DNA from: Symmachiella macrocystis
Lineage (GTDB): Bacteria; Planctomycetota; Planctomycetia; Planctomycetales; Planctomycetaceae
DNA length: 64,000 nt
NCBI RefSeq assembly: GCF_007860075.1
Contig: NZ_SJPP01000001.1
Span: 2,701,490 to 2,765,489 of the forward strand
Reading direction: 5' to 3'
How positions within the stretch are numbered: the stretch's first letter is position 1; each line of letters starts with the position of its first letter. Below are positions 54,830-63,540 of the stretch, one piece after another. The position numbers and the translations under genes were made by a program. The notes under the pieces are model-generated. The model saw only the letters and a list, made by a program, of their open reading frames with translations, ran no database searches and was not told where the DNA came from.

Positions 54830-55906
54830 CTATTGAGCGCGCTTTGCTTCGGCGGATTTTATGGCCCGGATGAGTTCGTCGAGCAGTCGCTGACCTTCGG
54901 GGCCGGCTAACTCGACAAACTGTTGTCGGACTGACTGGCTGGCGTCGCGAAATGCCTCGCGTTGCTCCGCGGTTAAGTCGGGTACGATGTTCAGCCCGGG
55001 CTTGTTCTCTTGGATCAATTTCAACCGGTCGCGGTTAAATTCGCGTTGGACTTCTAGAATATAGCCGTTCAATTCATCGACGGTTTCCAGCACCAGTTCC
55101 TGTTGCTCTGATGGCAAGCCTTGGAAAAATTCCAGGTTGGTGACGGAGGTCGTAATGAACGGTGATTGCTTAGCGAAGATCATCCAGTCGGTCACTTCGT
55201 AAAAGCTCATTTCCTGGATCGCAAACACCGGATTTTCCTGGCCGTCAATCATGTTCAACTGCAAAGCGGAATAGACTTCCGAATAGGGCAGGGGGGTCGG
55301 GCTGGCCCCATAAGCGGCGTAGGCGGCCAACAGCAAAGGCGAGGTCATTACCCGCATCTTCACACCGCTAAAATCTTCCGGAGTACGGATTGCTTTTTTT
55401 GTGGTCCACACCTGCCAACCTTCGGAATAGATTGATAACAACTTCAGTCGTTTGCGGGCATACAGTTCATCGAATGTGCGTCGCAACTCCGGATTGTCGT
55501 TGAGCACTTGGTTGTTGATTTCCTCGTCATCGGAAAACACAAAGTGCAACAGGAACACCTGCACTTCGGGGATCAGTTTTCCGAGATGACCCGGGGAGGC
55601 CATGGCGAATTGGATGACGCCCATGTCGACCAGCTCTGTAATCTGATCCGACGTACCGAGCGTGCCGTAAGGATAGATCGTGACTTCAATCGCGCCTTGG
55701 GAGCGCGACTCGATCAATTCCTTGAATTTGAGCGCATATTCATGCTGGACGCTGCCAATCGTTTCTTCGATGGCAAATCGCCATTGAATCGGTCCAGGTG
55801 ATTTCTGCGCGACAGGCCGGCCGCATGAGCAGAGTAGTGCCACGCACGGCAAGATCGCCAATAGCCAGCGGACGCGGATCAATTTTGCTTGAGACATGTT
55901 CATCAT
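54830..55906 (-). CDS. dctP: TRAP transporter substrate-binding lipoprotein, DctP type (probably for ectoine)
   Basis: A 358-residue extracytoplasmic binding protein. The signal MMNMSQAKLIRVRWLLAILP ends in LLCSCG, a lipobox, so it is a lipoprotein. DctP marks are FAIEETIGSVQHEYALKFKE, the conserved Arg in GVKMRVMTSPLLLAAYAAYG and LQLNMIDGQENPVFAIQEMS. It binds the solute and delivers it to DctQM. The position in the ectoine operon points to ectoine or hydroxyectoine, as for TeaA and UehA, but a carboxylate ligand is possible. Its start overlaps the stop of the DctM gene by 4 bases. Confidence 0.87.
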   Translation of the reverse strand: MMNMSQAKLIRVRWLLAILPCVALLCSCGRPVAQKSPGPIQWRFAIEETIGSVQHEYALKFKELIESRSQGAIEVTIYPYGTLGTSDQITELVDMGVIQFAMASPGHLGKLIPEVQVFLLHFVFSDDEEINNQVLNDNPELRRTFDELYARKRLKLLSIYSEGWQVWTTKKAIRTPEDFSGVKMRVMTSPLLLAAYAAYGASPTPLPYSEVYSALQLNMIDGQENPVFAIQEMSFYEVTDWMIFAKQSPFITTSVTNLEFFQGLPSEQQELVLETVDELNGYILEVQREFNRDRLKLIQENKPGLNIVPDLTAEQREAFRDASQSVRQQFVELAGPEGQRLLDELIRAIKSAEAKRAQ

Positions 55907-57192
55907 CCAAACGCCAGATCGCGGAGAAACAGGGAAATCTCGGGAAACGCGATCAACAAAACGGCGGCCAATAACAGGATTGCGATAAACGGCGGTGTCC
56001 CGCGAATGACCTCCCAGTACGGGCGGCGAAACACGGCGATCGCTGTAAAAATATCACAGCCGAATGGTGGCGTCGCAGAACCAATCGCCACTTGCAAAGT
56101 CACCACAATCCCCACCAAGACCGGGTCGATCCCCGCCGCTGCGGCAACTGGATGAAAGATCGGCGTCAAAATTAAAATCACGACAATGGGGTCGACGAAC
56201 ATGCATCCAATAAAAAACGCAGCGGCGATTGTGAGCATGATCGTCCAATATCCCGACGCCGCTGATAAGCCCAGCCAATCGTTGATCAATGCATCGGGCA
56301 ACTGCGCGAAGGAGATGACCCAACTAAATGCGGCGCCCGCACCGACCAAAACAAACACAACGGCGGTGACCACCCCCGTTGAGAGAGCGATGTCCGGGAG
56401 ATCGCGCAGCGACAGTTCCCGGAAAATGGCGATCTCTAAAATCACGGCATACAACACCGAGACCGCGGCCGCTTCGGTGGGGCTGAAGAATCCCGAGTAG
56501 ATTCCACCGATCACGATCACGGGAAATCCTAACGGAAAAATTGCCCCGCGGACTGATTTCCACCGTGTGGCGGAATCCGCCTTGGGCTGACGCGCGATGT
56601 TCATCCGTACCGAGGCGATCCAGCAATAAACACAGAACATGCCCAGGATCATCAAACCGGGACCGACGCCGGCAATGAACAGTTCACCTATCGACGTGCC
56701 GGACACCACACCGTAAACAATCATGCCGATGCTGGGGGGGATCAACAGCGCAATGTCGCTGGCATTAATGATCAGGGCGGTGGTGAACGCATCGGAATAG
56801 CCGGCTTGGAGAAGTCGCGGCCGCAACGGACCGCCGATAGCGACGACGGTGGCTTGCGTCGAACCGGACATGGCTCCGAATAACGTACAGCTCACCGCGC
56901 TGGCGATGGGCAGACCGCCCCGAAGATGTCCGCAATAGGCCATTACCATGTCGAGCAATCGCTGCGCGGAATATCCCCGTGTCATGATGTCGGCTGCGAA
57001 AATAAACATCGGTACGGCCATTAACGCCGCCGGCTTGATGCCGCCGATCATTTGCTGCACGAGCACCGCCGGAGTCACATCCGGATGAAAGACCCATAAG
57101 ACTCCCAGCGCCGCCGCTAGCAGGGGTACCTTCATCGGATAACCCAGCATCAGCAGTACGAGCATGATTCCGATGATCAATAACGCTTCCAC
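55903..57192 (-). CDS. dctM: TRAP transporter large permease, DctM type
   Basis: A 429-residue membrane protein with about 12 segments. Marks of DctM include IGIMLVLLMLGYPMKVPLLA at the start, then VPMFIFAADIMTRGYSAQRL and GAMSGSTQATVVAIGGPLRP, and near the end FVDPIVVILILTPIFHPVAA. It is the ion-coupled transport subunit; TRAP systems of this sort use the sodium gradient. It is co-transcribed with the DctQ gene (28 bases upstream) and the DctP gene (overlap). Confidence 0.92.
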   Translation of the reverse strand: MEALLIIGIMLVLLMLGYPMKVPLLAAALGVLWVFHPDVTPAVLVQQMIGGIKPAALMAVPMFIFAADIMTRGYSAQRLLDMVMAYCGHLRGGLPIASAVSCTLFGAMSGSTQATVVAIGGPLRPRLLQAGYSDAFTTALIINASDIALLIPPSIGMIVYGVVSGTSIGELFIAGVGPGLMILGMFCVYCWIASVRMNIARQPKADSATRWKSVRGAIFPLGFPVIVIGGIYSGFFSPTEAAAVSVLYAVILEIAIFRELSLRDLPDIALSTGVVTAVVFVLVGAGAAFSWVISFAQLPDALINDWLGLSAASGYWTIMLTIAAAFFIGCMFVDPIVVILILTPIFHPVAAAAGIDPVLVGIVVTLQVAIGSATPPFGCDIFTAIAVFRRPYWEVIRGTPPFIAILLLAAVLLIAFPEISLFLRDLAFG

Positions 57193-57220: not shown

Positions 57221-57814
57221 TTAGATTTCCCCGTCGAGGGGTTGGTCGTACTCGTCTTTCACGTCGAATGAAATATAGACGTCCGGCGACATGACGTTCC
57301 GAGCGGTCGTGAGCGCATATTGTATCGCCGCAGAAATCAATCCTAGCGGGACTAGTAAATAAACCACATACAACGGAACCTGCAAAACGGGCGAGACGCT
57401 TTCTAAAAACCGCACGGTACCAATGTATTGGAAGGAATACCAAGCAAGAACCAGCATCAGCGCGGCTGTCGATGCGCTAATGGCGATCATCAGCACCTTC
57501 CGCCCGCGCGGGCTGAATTGGTCATAGAGGGCCGTCATACGGATATGCCGGCCGCGACTGGCCGCATAACTGAGGCCGACAAATGTGACCATGATCATGA
57601 AGAATTGTGACAACTCTCCAGTGAATGGCAGGCTGAATTGCAAAACGGCGCGGCAGAAGACATTGCTGATCGTCAAAGCTGCAATCGCGATGATCGACCA
57701 ACCGAGGAGAAATTCTTCGATGCGTTGAATACCGGCAAACAGCCGCGTCAAAAGGGCCATCGCGTTCCTCTCCCCCGGTCGGTCCGTCTTTTGGGTCTCT
57801 CCATGAATGCTCAC
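57221..57814 (-). CDS. dctQ: TRAP transporter small permease, DctQ type
   Basis: A 197-residue protein with four membrane segments (about 36-58, 70-90, 107-130, 145-170). LLGWSIIAIAALTISNVFCR and FTGELSQFFMIMVTFVGLSY, then AASRGRHIRMTALYDQFSPR, are the DctQ signature. It helps the DctM subunit in the membrane. It begins 43 bases after the doeA stop, so it is part of the ectoine operon. The acidic C-terminal tail (about 25 residues) is longer than in most members. Confidence 0.9.
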   Translation of the reverse strand: MSIHGETQKTDRPGERNAMALLTRLFAGIQRIEEFLLGWSIIAIAALTISNVFCRAVLQFSLPFTGELSQFFMIMVTFVGLSYAASRGRHIRMTALYDQFSPRGRKVLMIAISASTAALMLVLAWYSFQYIGTVRFLESVSPVLQVPLYVVYLLVPLGLISAAIQYALTTARNVMSPDVYISFDVKDEYDQPLDGEI

Positions 57815-57857
57815 TACTCCCGCTCAACTTGAAAAGCGATTTTGGTCATTACTTGAT

Positions 57858-59012
57858 CTAAAGCTGACGCGGCAATTGCGTAATGACTTCGCAACCGTCC
57901 TCGGTGACACGAATGGTTTCCGACAGGCCGATGCCCCCTTTTCCCGGGATTTGTACCCAGGGGATGTTGTGGAACGTCATGTTCGGCTGCAGAACCCGCG
58001 GGTCACGGTGGCGAATGCTCATAATATGCCCCTCACCCCAGTCCGGAGCGAACGCGATGCCGATCGAGTAGGCCGAACGCGTAACTTGCATACCGCCAAA
58101 ATTCGGGGCCGCAAGGGAGATGATCTTACGACTCACTGCATCGACTTCTCCCAACCGTATCCCAGGCTTGATCATCGCGATCGAGGCATCGACTGCTTCT
58201 TGAACAGTCTTGATTGCATCTAAAATCTGCTGATCGGGTTGGCCGACAAAACAGTTCCGCATTATAGCGGCATGGTACCGCTTGAGACAGCCGCTTACTT
58301 CTAAAAATACGCATTCGTTCTTCTTGATGAAGTCGCCCGCCCAAGTTTGGTGGCCGATCGATCCGCGATGGCCGGTGGCTACAAAGGGCGAAATCGCCGG
58401 CCATTCTCCCCCCGCTTTGAACATGGCAAAATGAATATCGGCCGCCACATAATTTTCCGTGGCTCCTTCTTGGACCGCTTCGATGCCCGTCTGCTAACCC
58501 GCTTCGGCAACGCGGGCTGCGCTGCGGATCATCTCGATTTCCAGATCGGACTTGATCAACCGGCCCGCTTCAACAATTCCCGCACAGTCGACAAACGACG
58601 TCTCGTGCGATAAGGCGAATAACCGCTCTTGTTGCACGGCGGTGAAAAACCAACAATCCTTTTCAAAGCCGATGCGGTTGTCGCTCAAGTCATACAAACG
58701 CAGCGTATCGCGCACCTTTTGGATCGGATCTTCCACCTCTTCGTAAGGGCAGCTGATCGCAACCCAGGTGCGGGCCTGCACGCCGCTGTCTTCCATTCGG
58801 CGGGGAACCATGATTGGCTCCCCTTCCAGCGGTACGATCAGCGCGCAGAACGAAAAGTGACCTTGGCTTTCAAAGCCTGTGAGATAACAGATATTTTCCG
58901 GCGTGGTGATCAACACCGCGTCGAGGCCCCGTTCCGCCATACGTTGGCGGAGAGCCTGCATACGCCGTGCATATTCATGCATAGGAAAGGATAAGTCGTC
59001 GCGTTGTCTCAT
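57858..59012 (-). pseudogene. doeA: Ectoine hydrolase (M24 peptidase family), interrupted by an in-frame TAG
   Basis: The reading frame is 385 codons, normal for DoeA/EutD, but codon 173 (58494-58496) is TAG. Upstream is a creatinase-type N-terminal domain (MHEYARRMQALRQRMAERGL, then YLTGFESQGHFSF); it reaches MIRSAARVAEAG at the stop. Downstream, in the same frame, QTGIEAVQEGATEN leads to the pita-bread domain with GECVFLE-like EVSGCLKRYHAA, AFAPDWGEGHIMS and LQPNMTFHN. DoeA opens the ectoine ring to N-acetyl-diaminobutyrate. The stop separates the two domains, so neither piece should work alone. A sequencing error, nonsense mutation or read-through are all possible. A different M24 substrate is less likely given the operon. 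Confidence 0.75.
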
Positions 59013-59015
59013 CGT

Positions 59016-59318
59016 TTAGACTAGCGCTCCGTTCTTGGTTTCCAACTCATTCGCGAAATCCAAGATCGCCTTGGCCATTGCAGCTGCCGTTGAATGGTCC
59101 ATTGCTGTAACGGTACCTTCGACATCGTGCTCGGTGGAACTAAGCTGCTTCGCCAATTGCAGGGCACTTGCTTCGAGATCGGCCGGCCAGTCGTTGAGTT
59201 CGTACATCTGCTTCCAAACCGTTGCGCACGCACCGAGTAATGATTCTGCCAATTCGGGTTCGCGAATCGATAACAATTGTGCCGCCGTACGGATGGTATG
59301 TAATTCTTCAAGCATCAC
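59016..59318 (-). CDS. Small unknown protein within the ectoine operon
   Basis: A 100-residue soluble protein, helical throughout: MLEELHTIRTAAQLLSIREP, ELAESLLGACATVWKQMYEL and then STAAAMAKAILDFANELET. It has no signal, membrane segment or known motif that I recognise. It begins 15 bases after the ectD stop and ends 3 bases before the doeA start, so it is surely transcribed with them. A second frame on the same strand (59021-59311) overlaps it but has the composition of a shadow. It could be a regulator or a partner of the hydroxylase or hydrolase; there is no direct evidence. Confidence 0.65.
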   Translation of the reverse strand: MMLEELHTIRTAAQLLSIREPELAESLLGACATVWKQMYELNDWPADLEASALQLAKQLSSTEHDVEGTVTAMDHSTAAAMAKAILDFANELETKNGALV

Positions 59319-59333: not shown

Positions 59334-60284
59334 TCAAGCGTGTGATTGGACGTTAAGTTCTCGCATGGCCAACGGCGCGACTGCGGTGCGATTGGCGATA
59401 AATTCGGGGCGCGGTATTTTGCCGCAAAACGGTTCAACGAGACGATTGGCGAGACTATTGAAGACAAAAAACAAATTGGATCGCCGAAACGGAGTGATGT
59501 TCCCGTTCGAGCCGTGCATTGTGTTGCAATCAAACAGCACTATTGTGCCGGGCGGCCCGACCACGTTGACGATCCCGCCATCTTCTGCCAATCGCGCAAG
59601 AGATTCCTGGTCCGGAACGCCATATTCTTGTCGCCGCAACGACTTTTGATAGTGATTGTCGGGCGTTTCTCCCTCGCACGATACAAACTGCTGGTGCGAG
59701 CCGGGGATCAGCATGAGTGGACCGTTAAAATTGTAGTTCTCCGTCAGTAGCAGCGAACAGCTGACAGCCCGCATGCGCGGCATTCCATCTTCGACGTGCC
59801 ACGTTTCGAAATCCGAATGCCAGTAGAATTCTTTACCGGCGAATCCCGGTTTCAAGTTGACGCGCGATTGATGAACATACACCTCATCATCAATGATTTG
59901 TGCCGCCATGCCGGCAATGCGCTGATCCGCAGCAACCTCGGAAAAACAGGGGCTGATTTCTGAATTATGCACGGAGAATAGCTAACGCAATTCGCAATGG
60001 TTCGGTTCCAGAATCGCTTCCGGACGCTGTTGGATTTCTCGAGACGCGCAGAGCCTTTTAATTTCTTCCTTATAGGTGGCGATGTCCGTTTCAGGAAAAA
60101 ACGCGGGCAGAATCAGAAACCCGTCGCGCTCAAACTGGCTGAGTTGTGCCGTTGATAGCGGCCCTGGGGCTTCGAAGTCGCAAACGATCGGGTCGCATCG
60201 TTTCAGGAACTCCGGTTCAGGGTAGACCCTTGACGGATAACTGTCTTCCCGCGTATCGATACTGTGTGGGGGTGTTGTCTCCAT
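59334..60284 (-). pseudogene. ectD: Ectoine 5-hydroxylase, interrupted by an in-frame TAG
   Basis: The frame is 317 codons, the usual length for EctD, but codon 101 (59982-59984) is TAG. It falls at a position where related enzymes have Ser, in a stretch reading EPNHCELR, stop, LFSVHNSE. A single C-to-A change in TCG would give it. Downstream is the whole catalytic core: [39 protein letters not shown] (iron ligands His and Asp) and [12 protein letters not shown] (second His). EctD is a 2-oxoglutarate- and iron-dependent dioxygenase that makes 5-hydroxyectoine. The truncated product would be dead. A GTG at 59972 could allow internal restart, but that would lack 104 residues. Confidence 0.85.
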
Positions 60285-60509: not shown

Positions 60510-60905
60510 TTAAGTTTCCGCCGCAGTCGCCGCAGGGTAGGCTCCATTGGCGTTATGGACTTCGCGGCCGGTCACCGGCGGATTGAATACACACACCATT
60601 CGCAATTGCGTTTTCGCGCGGACGCAATGCCGGTCGTTGTCGTTCAGCGCGTACAGCGTGCCGGGACCAATCGGATAGGTCGGCCCATCCGGCAGCACTT
60701 GGATTTCTCCCTCGCCCTCAATGGTGTACACGGCTTCGAGGTGGTTTTCATAACACATTGTGGTTTCGGTGCCGGCATGGATCAGCGTGTCATGCATCGA
60801 GAAACCCATGTTTTCGCCGGCCAGCAACAGCCGGCGACTGTTCCATGTTTCGCCGTGGACATCACGCTCGGTGCCGATAATCTCGCTTAAGTTGGTTACA
60901 ATCAT
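60510..60905 (-). CDS. ectC: L-ectoine synthase
   Basis: A 131-residue cupin that closes the ring of N-gamma-acetyl-diaminobutyrate to give ectoine. MIVTNLSEIIGTERDVHGET is the usual start, followed by TWNSRRLLLAGENMGFSMHD, then ENHLEAVYTIEGEGEIQ with metal-ligand Glu, and GTLYALNDNDRHCVRAKTQL with the Tyr and His ligands. CVFNPPVTGREVHNANGAYP is the conserved C-terminal lid. It lies 38 bases after ectB and 225 bases before ectD, the widest gap in the operon. Confidence 0.97.
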   Translation of the reverse strand: MIVTNLSEIIGTERDVHGETWNSRRLLLAGENMGFSMHDTLIHAGTETTMCYENHLEAVYTIEGEGEIQVLPDGPTYPIGPGTLYALNDNDRHCVRAKTQLRMVCVFNPPVTGREVHNANGAYPAATAAET

Positions 60906-60943: not shown

Positions 60944-62239
60944 TCAGTTGGCGTGGGTGAGGCCGAGCGACTTCATGGCCTCGGCGTCATTGAGGACGAC
61001 TGTGAAACATTCGGCAATTGTATCCAGCCCGCTGATCAGTTGGTCATCGTCGATCGTCAGCGGCGGCAAACATTTCAGGACATGGCTGTCCGTGCCGCTG
61101 GTTTCGATGATCAATCCGCGTTTGAACGCGGCAGCACTGACCAGTTCCATCAGTTGAGGGCACTCCCGGCAAGCCAGTCCCCAGATCATCCCTTTACCGC
61201 GGACTTCCAGTTCGACATCGTTGATTTCCTCGGCAATCTCTTGCAGGCGTTTCTGTATCAGCGCCCCTTTGCGTTTTACCGATCGCGTCATGGAATAATC
61301 TTGCCAATACAAGTCGATAGCCGCTTTGGCCGATACGAACGCCAGATTGTTGCCGCGAAACGTGCCGTTGTGTTCGCCTGGTTTCCACTCGTCGAGTTCC
61401 GATTTCATGAGGACCAATGACATCGGCAATCCGTAGGCGCTCAGCGATTTTGAGAGCGTAACGATGTCCGGCACAATCCCGGCTTCTTCAAAACTGAAGA
61501 AGGTTCCCGTTCGGCCGCAGCCGACCTGAATGTCGTCGACAATCAGCAGAATTTCGAATTCATGGCACAGTTCTTCGAGCTTTTGCAGCCACTCGATGCT
61601 TGCGACATTCACGCCCCCTTCGCCTTGGACGGTTTCGACAACGACAGCCGCCGGTAGGTCCAAGCCGCTGCTACTGTCGCGCAATAATCGCTCGAAATAA
61701 TCCAGCGTATCAATGTCTTCGCCAAGATAGCCATCGAACGGCATAAACGTGACATTGTTCAGCGGTGTTCCCGCTGCGTCACGGAAGTGGCTATTTCCCG
61801 TAGCGGCCACCGAGCCGAGGCTGACTCCGTGGAAACCGTTGGTGAATGAAACGATATTCGTCCGTCCGGTCACTTTGCGAGCCAGTTTGAAAGCGGCCTC
61901 GACGGCGTTTGTTCCGGTCGGTCCGGTGAACTGAATTTTGTAGTCAAGCTCCAACGGCCACAGAATGTGCTCTTCAAAGGCTTCCAGAAATTGCGCCTTG
62001 GCATCAGTATGCATGTCGAGCCCATGCAGCACGCCGTCGTTCTGCAGATACTCGATGAGCGGGCCTTTGATATCTGAATTGTTGTGGCCGTAGTTCAGGG
62101 TTCCCGCACCGGCGAGAAAATCGATAAAATCCTGCCCGTTCTCATCGGTGAGTGTTGCGTTTTGAGCGGTCGTAAAAGTCGTGGGAAACGAGCGGCAGTA
62201 GCCCCGCACGTTCGATTCAAGACGATCAAAAATAGACAT
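60944..62239 (-). CDS. ectB: Diaminobutyrate-2-oxoglutarate transaminase
   Basis: A 431-residue class III PLP aminotransferase that makes L-2,4-diaminobutyrate from aspartate semialdehyde. MSIFDRLESNVRGYCRSFPT matches the EctB start. The PLP Lys is in VTLSKSLSAYGLPMS (about residue 267), with the upstream Asp in ILLIVDDIQVGCGRTGTFFS, and GPTGTNAVEAAFKLARKVTG is the phosphate-binding region. It follows ectA by 24 bases and precedes ectC by 38, giving the usual ectABC order. Confidence 0.97.
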   Translation of the reverse strand: MSIFDRLESNVRGYCRSFPTTFTTAQNATLTDENGQDFIDFLAGAGTLNYGHNNSDIKGPLIEYLQNDGVLHGLDMHTDAKAQFLEAFEEHILWPLELDYKIQFTGPTGTNAVEAAFKLARKVTGRTNIVSFTNGFHGVSLGSVAATGNSHFRDAAGTPLNNVTFMPFDGYLGEDIDTLDYFERLLRDSSSGLDLPAAVVVETVQGEGGVNVASIEWLQKLEELCHEFEILLIVDDIQVGCGRTGTFFSFEEAGIVPDIVTLSKSLSAYGLPMSLVLMKSELDEWKPGEHNGTFRGNNLAFVSAKAAIDLYWQDYSMTRSVKRKGALIQKRLQEIAEEINDVELEVRGKGMIWGLACRECPQLMELVSAAAFKRGLIIETSGTDSHVLKCLPPLTIDDDQLISGLDTIAECFTVVLNDAEAMKSLGLTHAN

Positions 62240-62263: not shown

Positions 62264-62752
62264 TTAGTGATTCAATGTGAATGGACCGATGCGGTGCAAG
62301 TCTTCCGGTTCATGCGGATTGGTCTCGTCAAACAATTCTGTTGTAAAACCCTCTTCTCGGTTGCACTCCGTCTCCAGCCGCGCTGCCAGCGACTGAAATA
62401 ATTTTTGCGACGATGTATTGGAGGGTGTGACGGTTGTTTCCAGCCAGTTGACTTGGCCGCACGCGGGGCGGGCCAACAGCTCGTCGAGCAACTGCGAGGC
62501 AACGCCGGCAGAGCGATGTTGGGGATCAACGGCCACTTGCCAAACGAAAACAGTGTCATTCCGTCCGGGCGGACGGTATGCTGACAGGAACCCAGCCAAT
62601 TGAGAGTCGAGCTCCGCGATGACGCAGGTTGCATGAAAATCGCGGCATAACAGCAGGGAAAGATAGTGCGAATTCACGTCCAACGGTGGACACCGTCGAA
62701 CCAGCCGCGTAATCCGAGCCGCGTCGGCTAAAGTCGGCTCCCGGAAATTCAA
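62264..62752 (-). CDS. ectA: L-2,4-diaminobutyrate N-gamma-acetyltransferase
   Basis: A 162-residue GNAT enzyme that acetylates diaminobutyrate, the second step of ectoine synthesis. FREPTLADAARITRLVRRCP followed by PLDVNSHYLSLLLCRDF is the EctA start, and VAVDPQHRSAGVASQLLDEL holds the acetyl-CoA loop. LETTVTPSNTSSQKLFQSLA and FTTELFD near the end are conserved. It is the first gene of the nine-gene run; its start is 35 bases from the palindrome at 62787-62819. Confidence 0.95.
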   Translation of the reverse strand: MNFREPTLADAARITRLVRRCPPLDVNSHYLSLLLCRDFHATCVIAELDSQLAGFLSAYRPPGRNDTVFVWQVAVDPQHRSAGVASQLLDELLARPACGQVNWLETTVTPSNTSSQKLFQSLAARLETECNREEGFTTELFDETNPHEPEDLHRIGPFTLNH

Positions 62753-62988: not shown

Positions 62989-63540
62989 ATGGCCGTTCAA
63001 CGGACAACGACGCTGCAGCCCGATGACTTCTTCTGCGAGCAAGTGCTCATTGCACTGCGTCGTATTATCCGTGCTGTCGACCTGCGCTCGCGTAAGCTGT
63101 TGCAGAAACACGGGCTCACCGGGCCGCAACTCACTGTGCTCAAAGCTCTTTGTGAAATTGGTGAGGTGCCGGCTGGTGAATTGGCGAAACAGGTCCACTT
63201 GAGCCAAGGCACGGTTACGGGGATTTTGGATCGGCTGACGCGCCGCGATTTTGTCGTCCGCCGCCGCTGCCCTGTCGATAAGCGTCGGATGCTTGTCGTC
63301 GCGACGCCGCAGGCCACCGAGCTTGTTCGTAGTGCTCCGTCATTGCTTCAAGAGCAGTTCGTTCACGAATTCGCCAAACTGGCCGATTGGGAAAAATCCC
63401 AGACGCTTTCTTCGCTGCAGCGGATCGTCTCCATGATGGAGGCTGAGGAGATCGACGCAACTCCCATGCTGGCCATCGGTGCGATCGGCGAATCGGCCGA
63501 GAAGGCGGCCGACCGTCTCAGCGAACAGCCGCCCGCTTAG
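62989..63540 (+). CDS. MarR-family transcriptional regulator (EctR-like by position)
   Basis: A 183-residue winged-helix protein. LRRIIRAVDLRSRKLLQKHG is the N-terminal dimer helix, LTGPQLTVLKALCEIGEVPA and GELAKQVHLSQGTVTGILDR form the helix-turn-helix, and LTRRDFVVRRRCPVDKRRML is the wing. It is divergent from ectA with 236 bases between. MarR-type EctR regulators repress ectoine genes in halotolerant methylotrophs, so the same job is likely here, perhaps through the palindrome in between. The gene lacks a near neighbour downstream and ends with TAG. Confidence 0.88.
   Translation: MAVQRTTTLQPDDFFCEQVLIALRRIIRAVDLRSRKLLQKHGLTGPQLTVLKALCEIGEVPAGELAKQVHLSQGTVTGILDRLTRRDFVVRRRCPVDKRRMLVVATPQATELVRSAPSLLQEQFVHEFAKLADWEKSQTLSSLQRIVSMMEAEEIDATPMLAIGAIGESAEKAADRLSEQPPA

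Follow-up and report, generated by a model that had tools for sequence, protein, structure and literature searches.

The window, i.e. the whole 64,000-nucleotide stretch of Symmachiella macrocystis DNA that was analyzed, contains an ectoine operon on the minus strand, in the order ectA, ectB, ectC, ectD, a 100-residue frame, a doeA-like gene and three TRAP transporter genes. The genes ectA (62264-62752), ectB (60944-62239) and ectC (60510-60905) are open, ectA being named by its position, since it is homologous to the gene of a sister species and occupies the same place in nine other operons. The ectD frame, for ectoine hydroxylase (59334-60284), is interrupted by one TAG, and is followed by an open frame, here termed orf100 (59016-59318), which is also present in the sister species and has no Pfam or NCBIfam match. 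The doeA-like frame, of the M24 family (57858-59012), is likewise interrupted and comprises 172 codons, a TAG, 211 codons and a further TAG. The transporter genes, all open and on the minus strand, encode the small membrane subunit DctQ (57221-57814), the large membrane subunit DctM (55903-57192) and the solute-binding protein DctP (54830-55906). Divergent from the operon, on the plus strand, lies a gene for a MarR-type regulator, probably EctR (62989-63540), of which the sister copy matches Pfam MarR. The genome holding the window has 7,574,949 bases and is presumably that of S. macrocystis strain CA54; the sister genome used for comparison, a contig of 7,767,809 bases, is apparently that of S. 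dynata Mal52. The sister operon is ~90% identical over 9.5 kb and collinear, with ectD and doeA both open and no coding indels between the two. The ectABC and TRAP genes are open and conserved, with pairwise omega values against the sister of 0.02-0.11.

Codon 173 of the doeA-like frame is TAG (58494-58496, minus strand), as the initial annotation had reported; the sister has ATG (Met) here, and Met occupies this column in 17 of 20 relatives, the sister counted among them. The same annotation had placed the stop exactly between the N-terminal and catalytic domains and had seen no other damage in the gene, neither of which holds. Judged by the domain bounds of the sister's intact DoeA-like protein (Creatinase_N, residues 17-153; Peptidase_M24, from residue 160), the stop lies ~13 residues inside the catalytic domain, and a third TAG, which is the terminal one of the frame (codon 385; 57858-57860, minus strand), replaces a TAC that in the sister is followed by Ile-Lys-stop, so removing the final residues YIK. 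The triplets ATC AAG TAA are still found 3' of this TAG, at 57849-57857. The sister protein ends in PRQLYIK and DoeA of H. elongata in PRQLFVK; when 19 of 21 loci of DoeA relatives were aligned, two partial loci (L125 and L129) being dropped, a residue was present in the terminal-TAG column in 18 of the 19 fetched relatives, in 8 of them Phe. The part downstream of codon 173 retains 96% amino acid identity to the open frame of the sister.

The other in-frame TAG noted for the operon lies in ectD and is indeed present, at codon 101 (59982-59984, minus strand), 1,488 bases from that in doeA and upstream of the HSDFETWH stretch, such that there is no open reading frame for the whole enzyme. The sister has TCA (Ser) at this codon, and in 24 relatives the column is occupied by Ser (22) or Thr (2), with TCG as the codon in 14. 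Both premature stops are thus two-base differences from the sister codons. Another EctD of the class that carries a TAG (genome G249) was dismissed, its TAG being the normal C-terminal stop.

Read across the stop, the window EctD scores 368.6 bits with TIGR02408 (cut-off 336.5), and the downstream part alone scores 313.6 bits. The assignment of the doeA-like gene is less direct: even the sister's intact protein lies below the cut-offs of both ectoine hydrolase models, at 458.5 bits with NF038259 (cut-off 575) and 234.4 bits with TIGR02993 (cut-off 613), and the window protein, read across its stops, scores 442.2 bits against the cut-off of 575. The domains are Creatinase_N plus M24, whole in the sister and in two pieces in the window. 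Among solved structures the sister protein matches best to PDB 6twk (203.7 bits; next other protein, 119.1 bits), which we take to be the ectoine hydrolase DoeA of H. elongata. Given this match and the context of an ect operon, the gene probably encodes an ectoine hydrolase. A clear DoeB was found in neither genome, the best scores with TIGR02994 being 103.2 bits here and 108.7 bits in the sister (cut-off 402.7).

The frequency of such interruptions was surveyed by comparing two 400-kb stretches of each genome (800 kb), covering 179 + 236 = 415 coding-like sister genes; stops at 25-90% of gene length were counted in genes with a coding substitution pattern, an identity of 80% or more and a coverage of 85% or more, a filter that loses true early or late stops, a candidate being a 365-residue frame with a TAG near codon 67. 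Mid-gene in-frame stops were found here in 2 of the 415 genes, only ectD and doeA, and in the reverse comparison 2 of 409 genes were broken in the sister. When the coding filter was lifted the counts rose to 15 of 471 for sister frames read on this genome, and to 22 of 475 in reverse. In all 13 frames dropped by the filter here nonsynonymous changes outnumber synonymous ones, which suggests that these frames do not code; among the 20 dropped in the reverse direction none has more synonymous than nonsynonymous changes, one having 16 of each. In a first survey, in which stops near the ends were counted, 27 of 202 sister frames appeared disrupted here and 26 of 206 in reverse, with many of these stops lying near frame ends and attributed to starts placed too far upstream or to displaced ends. 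For two stops distributed at random among 415 genes, the chance that the second falls in the same nine-gene group as the first is 8/414. The proposal that two TAGs in one operon are unlikely by chance is therefore borne out, these being the only two among 415 genes; and the many stops and frameshifts across the assembly that, according to the initial annotation, would have spoken against its reading were not seen, the survey giving 2 of 415 and the operon being free of coding indels.

Further changes have accumulated in ectD. Private changes were counted by hand at columns invariant in nine related operons, and the window EctD has five (Y35C, L131I, E185N, P267R and Y275F) in 161 such columns, compared with 10 of 1240 for six further operon genes (Fisher p = 0.022); in the sister the corresponding counts are 2 of 161 for ectD and 3 of 1240 for the control genes (p = 0.10). 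Both P267 and Y275 are also conserved in the two solved EctD proteins shown. When changes were polarized, ectD plus doeA had 20 window-derived and 4 sister-derived changes, and the six control genes 29 and 12, respectively, indicating that the whole window lineage is faster. The relative-rate excess of ectD plus doeA over the control genes is not significant (p = 0.37), because the latter are also skewed. With 13 outgroups, taken from the 19 aligned DoeA loci, 8 of 12 DoeA differences were window-derived and 1 sister-derived; with two outgroups the split was 5 to 1. Across its length doeA gives an omega of 0.032 against the sister (rank 149 of 179), and, because DoeA is otherwise so strongly conserved, any decay is recent.

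The highly probable interpretation of these observations is that ectD and the doeA-like gene have undergone recent, lineage-specific inactivation by nonsense mutations. Both genes are disrupted here, open in a close relative and without a second copy of EctD or DoeA in this genome, the next matches being at most 30% identical, as is characteristic of pseudogenes. The two stops are very probably true and would represent ordinary gene loss rather than recoding. It may be that neither the production of hydroxyectoine nor the DoeA-like hydrolase remained under selection in the window lineage. For ectD the precursor of the stop was probably TCG, which most relatives use at this position, and the doeA stop probably came via TTG (Leu), or by a double change; that both premature stops are amber would follow because TAG is the only stop one base removed from TCG and from TTG. 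The terminal TAC of doeA is one base from both TAG and TAA, and recoding is not needed to account for three amber stops. The cell would still make and import ectoine, yet would not convert it by EctD and the DoeA-like enzyme. Of the proposal that the strain makes ectoine but neither hydroxylates nor degrades it, the double loss is thus the best supported part; the statement on degradation is partly extrapolation, since DoeA scores below the cut-offs and no clear DoeB is apparent.

Three other types of explanation have to be weighed. Errors of base-calling or assembly at both sites, leaving the genes intact in the living strain, would fit with the facts that both TAGs are known here from the assembled sequence alone, that both are two-base differences from the sister, that both lie inside the hexamer GTTAGC and that the assembly contains one or more 100-N gaps (one at contig position 2639390, outside the window). 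Random assembly noise is unlikely, however, because mid-gene stops are confined to ectD and doeA, with none in the remaining 413 of the 415 genes, and because the operon lacks coding indels; the private changes in EctD and the third TAG are also in keeping with real decay, and overall such errors are improbable. A motif-bound base-calling error at GTTAGC was considered and rejected, the hexamer not being enriched (65 here and 67 in the sister per 400 kb). Alternatively, the genes may have been split, with translation stopping at each TAG and restarting downstream to give two-piece enzymes. GTG starts are available at 58448 (doeA) and 59972 (ectD), with open downstream frames of 196 and 212 residues, and the downstream parts are still conserved (omega 0.042 for doeA and 0.096 for ectD). 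Yet the doeA restart would drop ~29 residues of the M24 domain, no split gene occurs among the relatives compared (20 for doeA and 24 for ectD), and E185N, P267R and Y275F all lie downstream of the ectD stop, making functional splitting extremely unlikely.

Amber read-through, by a suppressor tRNA, by recoding or in a regulated form, would yield full-length EctD and DoeA. It would fit with the facts that all three stops discussed are TAG and that, with TAG as sense, DoeA would end at the TAA, exactly at the sister's length; regulated read-through had been raised by the initial annotation as a more exotic option. The search for an amber suppressor tRNA that it proposed was run over the tRNA candidates of the genome and none was found: ARAGORN named a tRNA at each of the 74 RF00005 hits, none with a CUA anticodon, and six weaker hits added none, five giving no tRNA and the sixth a tRNA-Ala from a stretch that the scan had covered before. 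This search scored 150 of 206 first-look candidates and saw 76 tRNAs, so that an odd tRNA could be missed; a published table gives 78 tRNAs for Symmachiella macrocystis CA54 (PMC7716862). The genome also contains an array of 20 tRNA genes within 5.6 kb (contig about 4071930-4077520), 18 of which appear in the RF00005 list with E values of at most 0.001 and score 30.3-64.5 bits. Release factor 1 is present, above cut-off, the best PylS score is 22.1 bits (cut-off 178.15), and TAG serves as an ordinary terminal stop, ending 78 of 312 longest frames. The proposed search for other genes with a single in-frame TAG likewise revealed no mid-gene case among the remaining 413 of the 415 coding-like genes, and the replaced Met (doeA) and Ser (ectD) are conserved in relatives. 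Read-through thus has little in its favor and is very unlikely. Inefficient or conditional decoding of the two TAGs, whether through near-cognate read-through or through a suppressor that went unrecognized, appears more doubtful still; were it to occur, ectoine modification would depend on termination efficiency.

The distribution of the DoeA type informs on how the doeA-like gene came to be in the operon. At E 1e-80 or better it was found only in the window genome and its sister among 397 genomes of the class, and neither it nor orf100 was found in nine 12-kb ect operon stretches from one other genus of the family; because so few genomes of the class have it and the nine related operons lack it, doeA was probably inserted in this lineage. 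Outside the class, a relative of doeA in a Chloroflexi MAG (locus L110, 4735-11467) lies beside a peptidase-like gene, two further M24-like genes and ABC transporter genes, a neighborhood which presumably resembles an ectoine-use cluster. Elsewhere in the window, positions 1 to ~22194 belong to a stretch of ~85 kb (contig 2638150-2723683) without a match of at least 800 bases in the sister's syntenic 400-kb stretch. It starts just after a tRNA-Met gene, and 24 bases of the tRNA 3' end are repeated at 2657846; this border, the repeat and the lack of a sister match suggest an integrated island.

Should the stops be genuine, ectoine hydroxylation and the DoeA-like step would be naturally absent from a culturable type strain and retained in a close sister, and the two would form a ready-made pair for studying the part that hydroxyectoine and the turnover of ectoine play in marine planctomycetes. 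No published account of these broken ectoine genes was among the literature matches listed. It also follows that counts of ectD made by similarity alone can overstate the number of hydroxyectoine producers. A study of 163 planctomycete type strains reports ectC in 23 and ectD in 15 (PMC13342039); neither Symmachiella nor doeA occurs in its main text.

With respect to known systems, the operon resembles the planctomycete ectABCD-TRAP clusters, as described in that study (PMC13342039), in having ectABC, ectD, a MarR-type ectR and a TRAP transporter. It differs, as does that of the sister, in having orf100 and doeA between ectD and the TRAP genes, whereas the order ectABCD-dctQMP is common to the nine operons retrieved from one other genus of the family. 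The ectD frame is like characterized EctD (TIGR02408; PDB 4mhr and 3emr) in scoring above the cut-off when read across its stop, but is unlike it in the TAG at codon 101 and in P267R and Y275F. By comparison with ectoine hydrolase DoeA (NF038259 and TIGR02993; PDB 6twk), the doeA-like gene lies inside an ectABCD-TRAP operon, and its sister protein has this enzyme as closest solved match; however, the sister protein falls under the cut-offs, and in the window the gene is broken by the stop at codon 173 and shortened at its end. Bacterial pseudogenes formed by nonsense mutation have isolated stop codons in otherwise collinear frames. The two genes conform to this pattern, including in being open in a close relative, and are unusual in that two genes of one operon have been struck while the rest of it has been kept.
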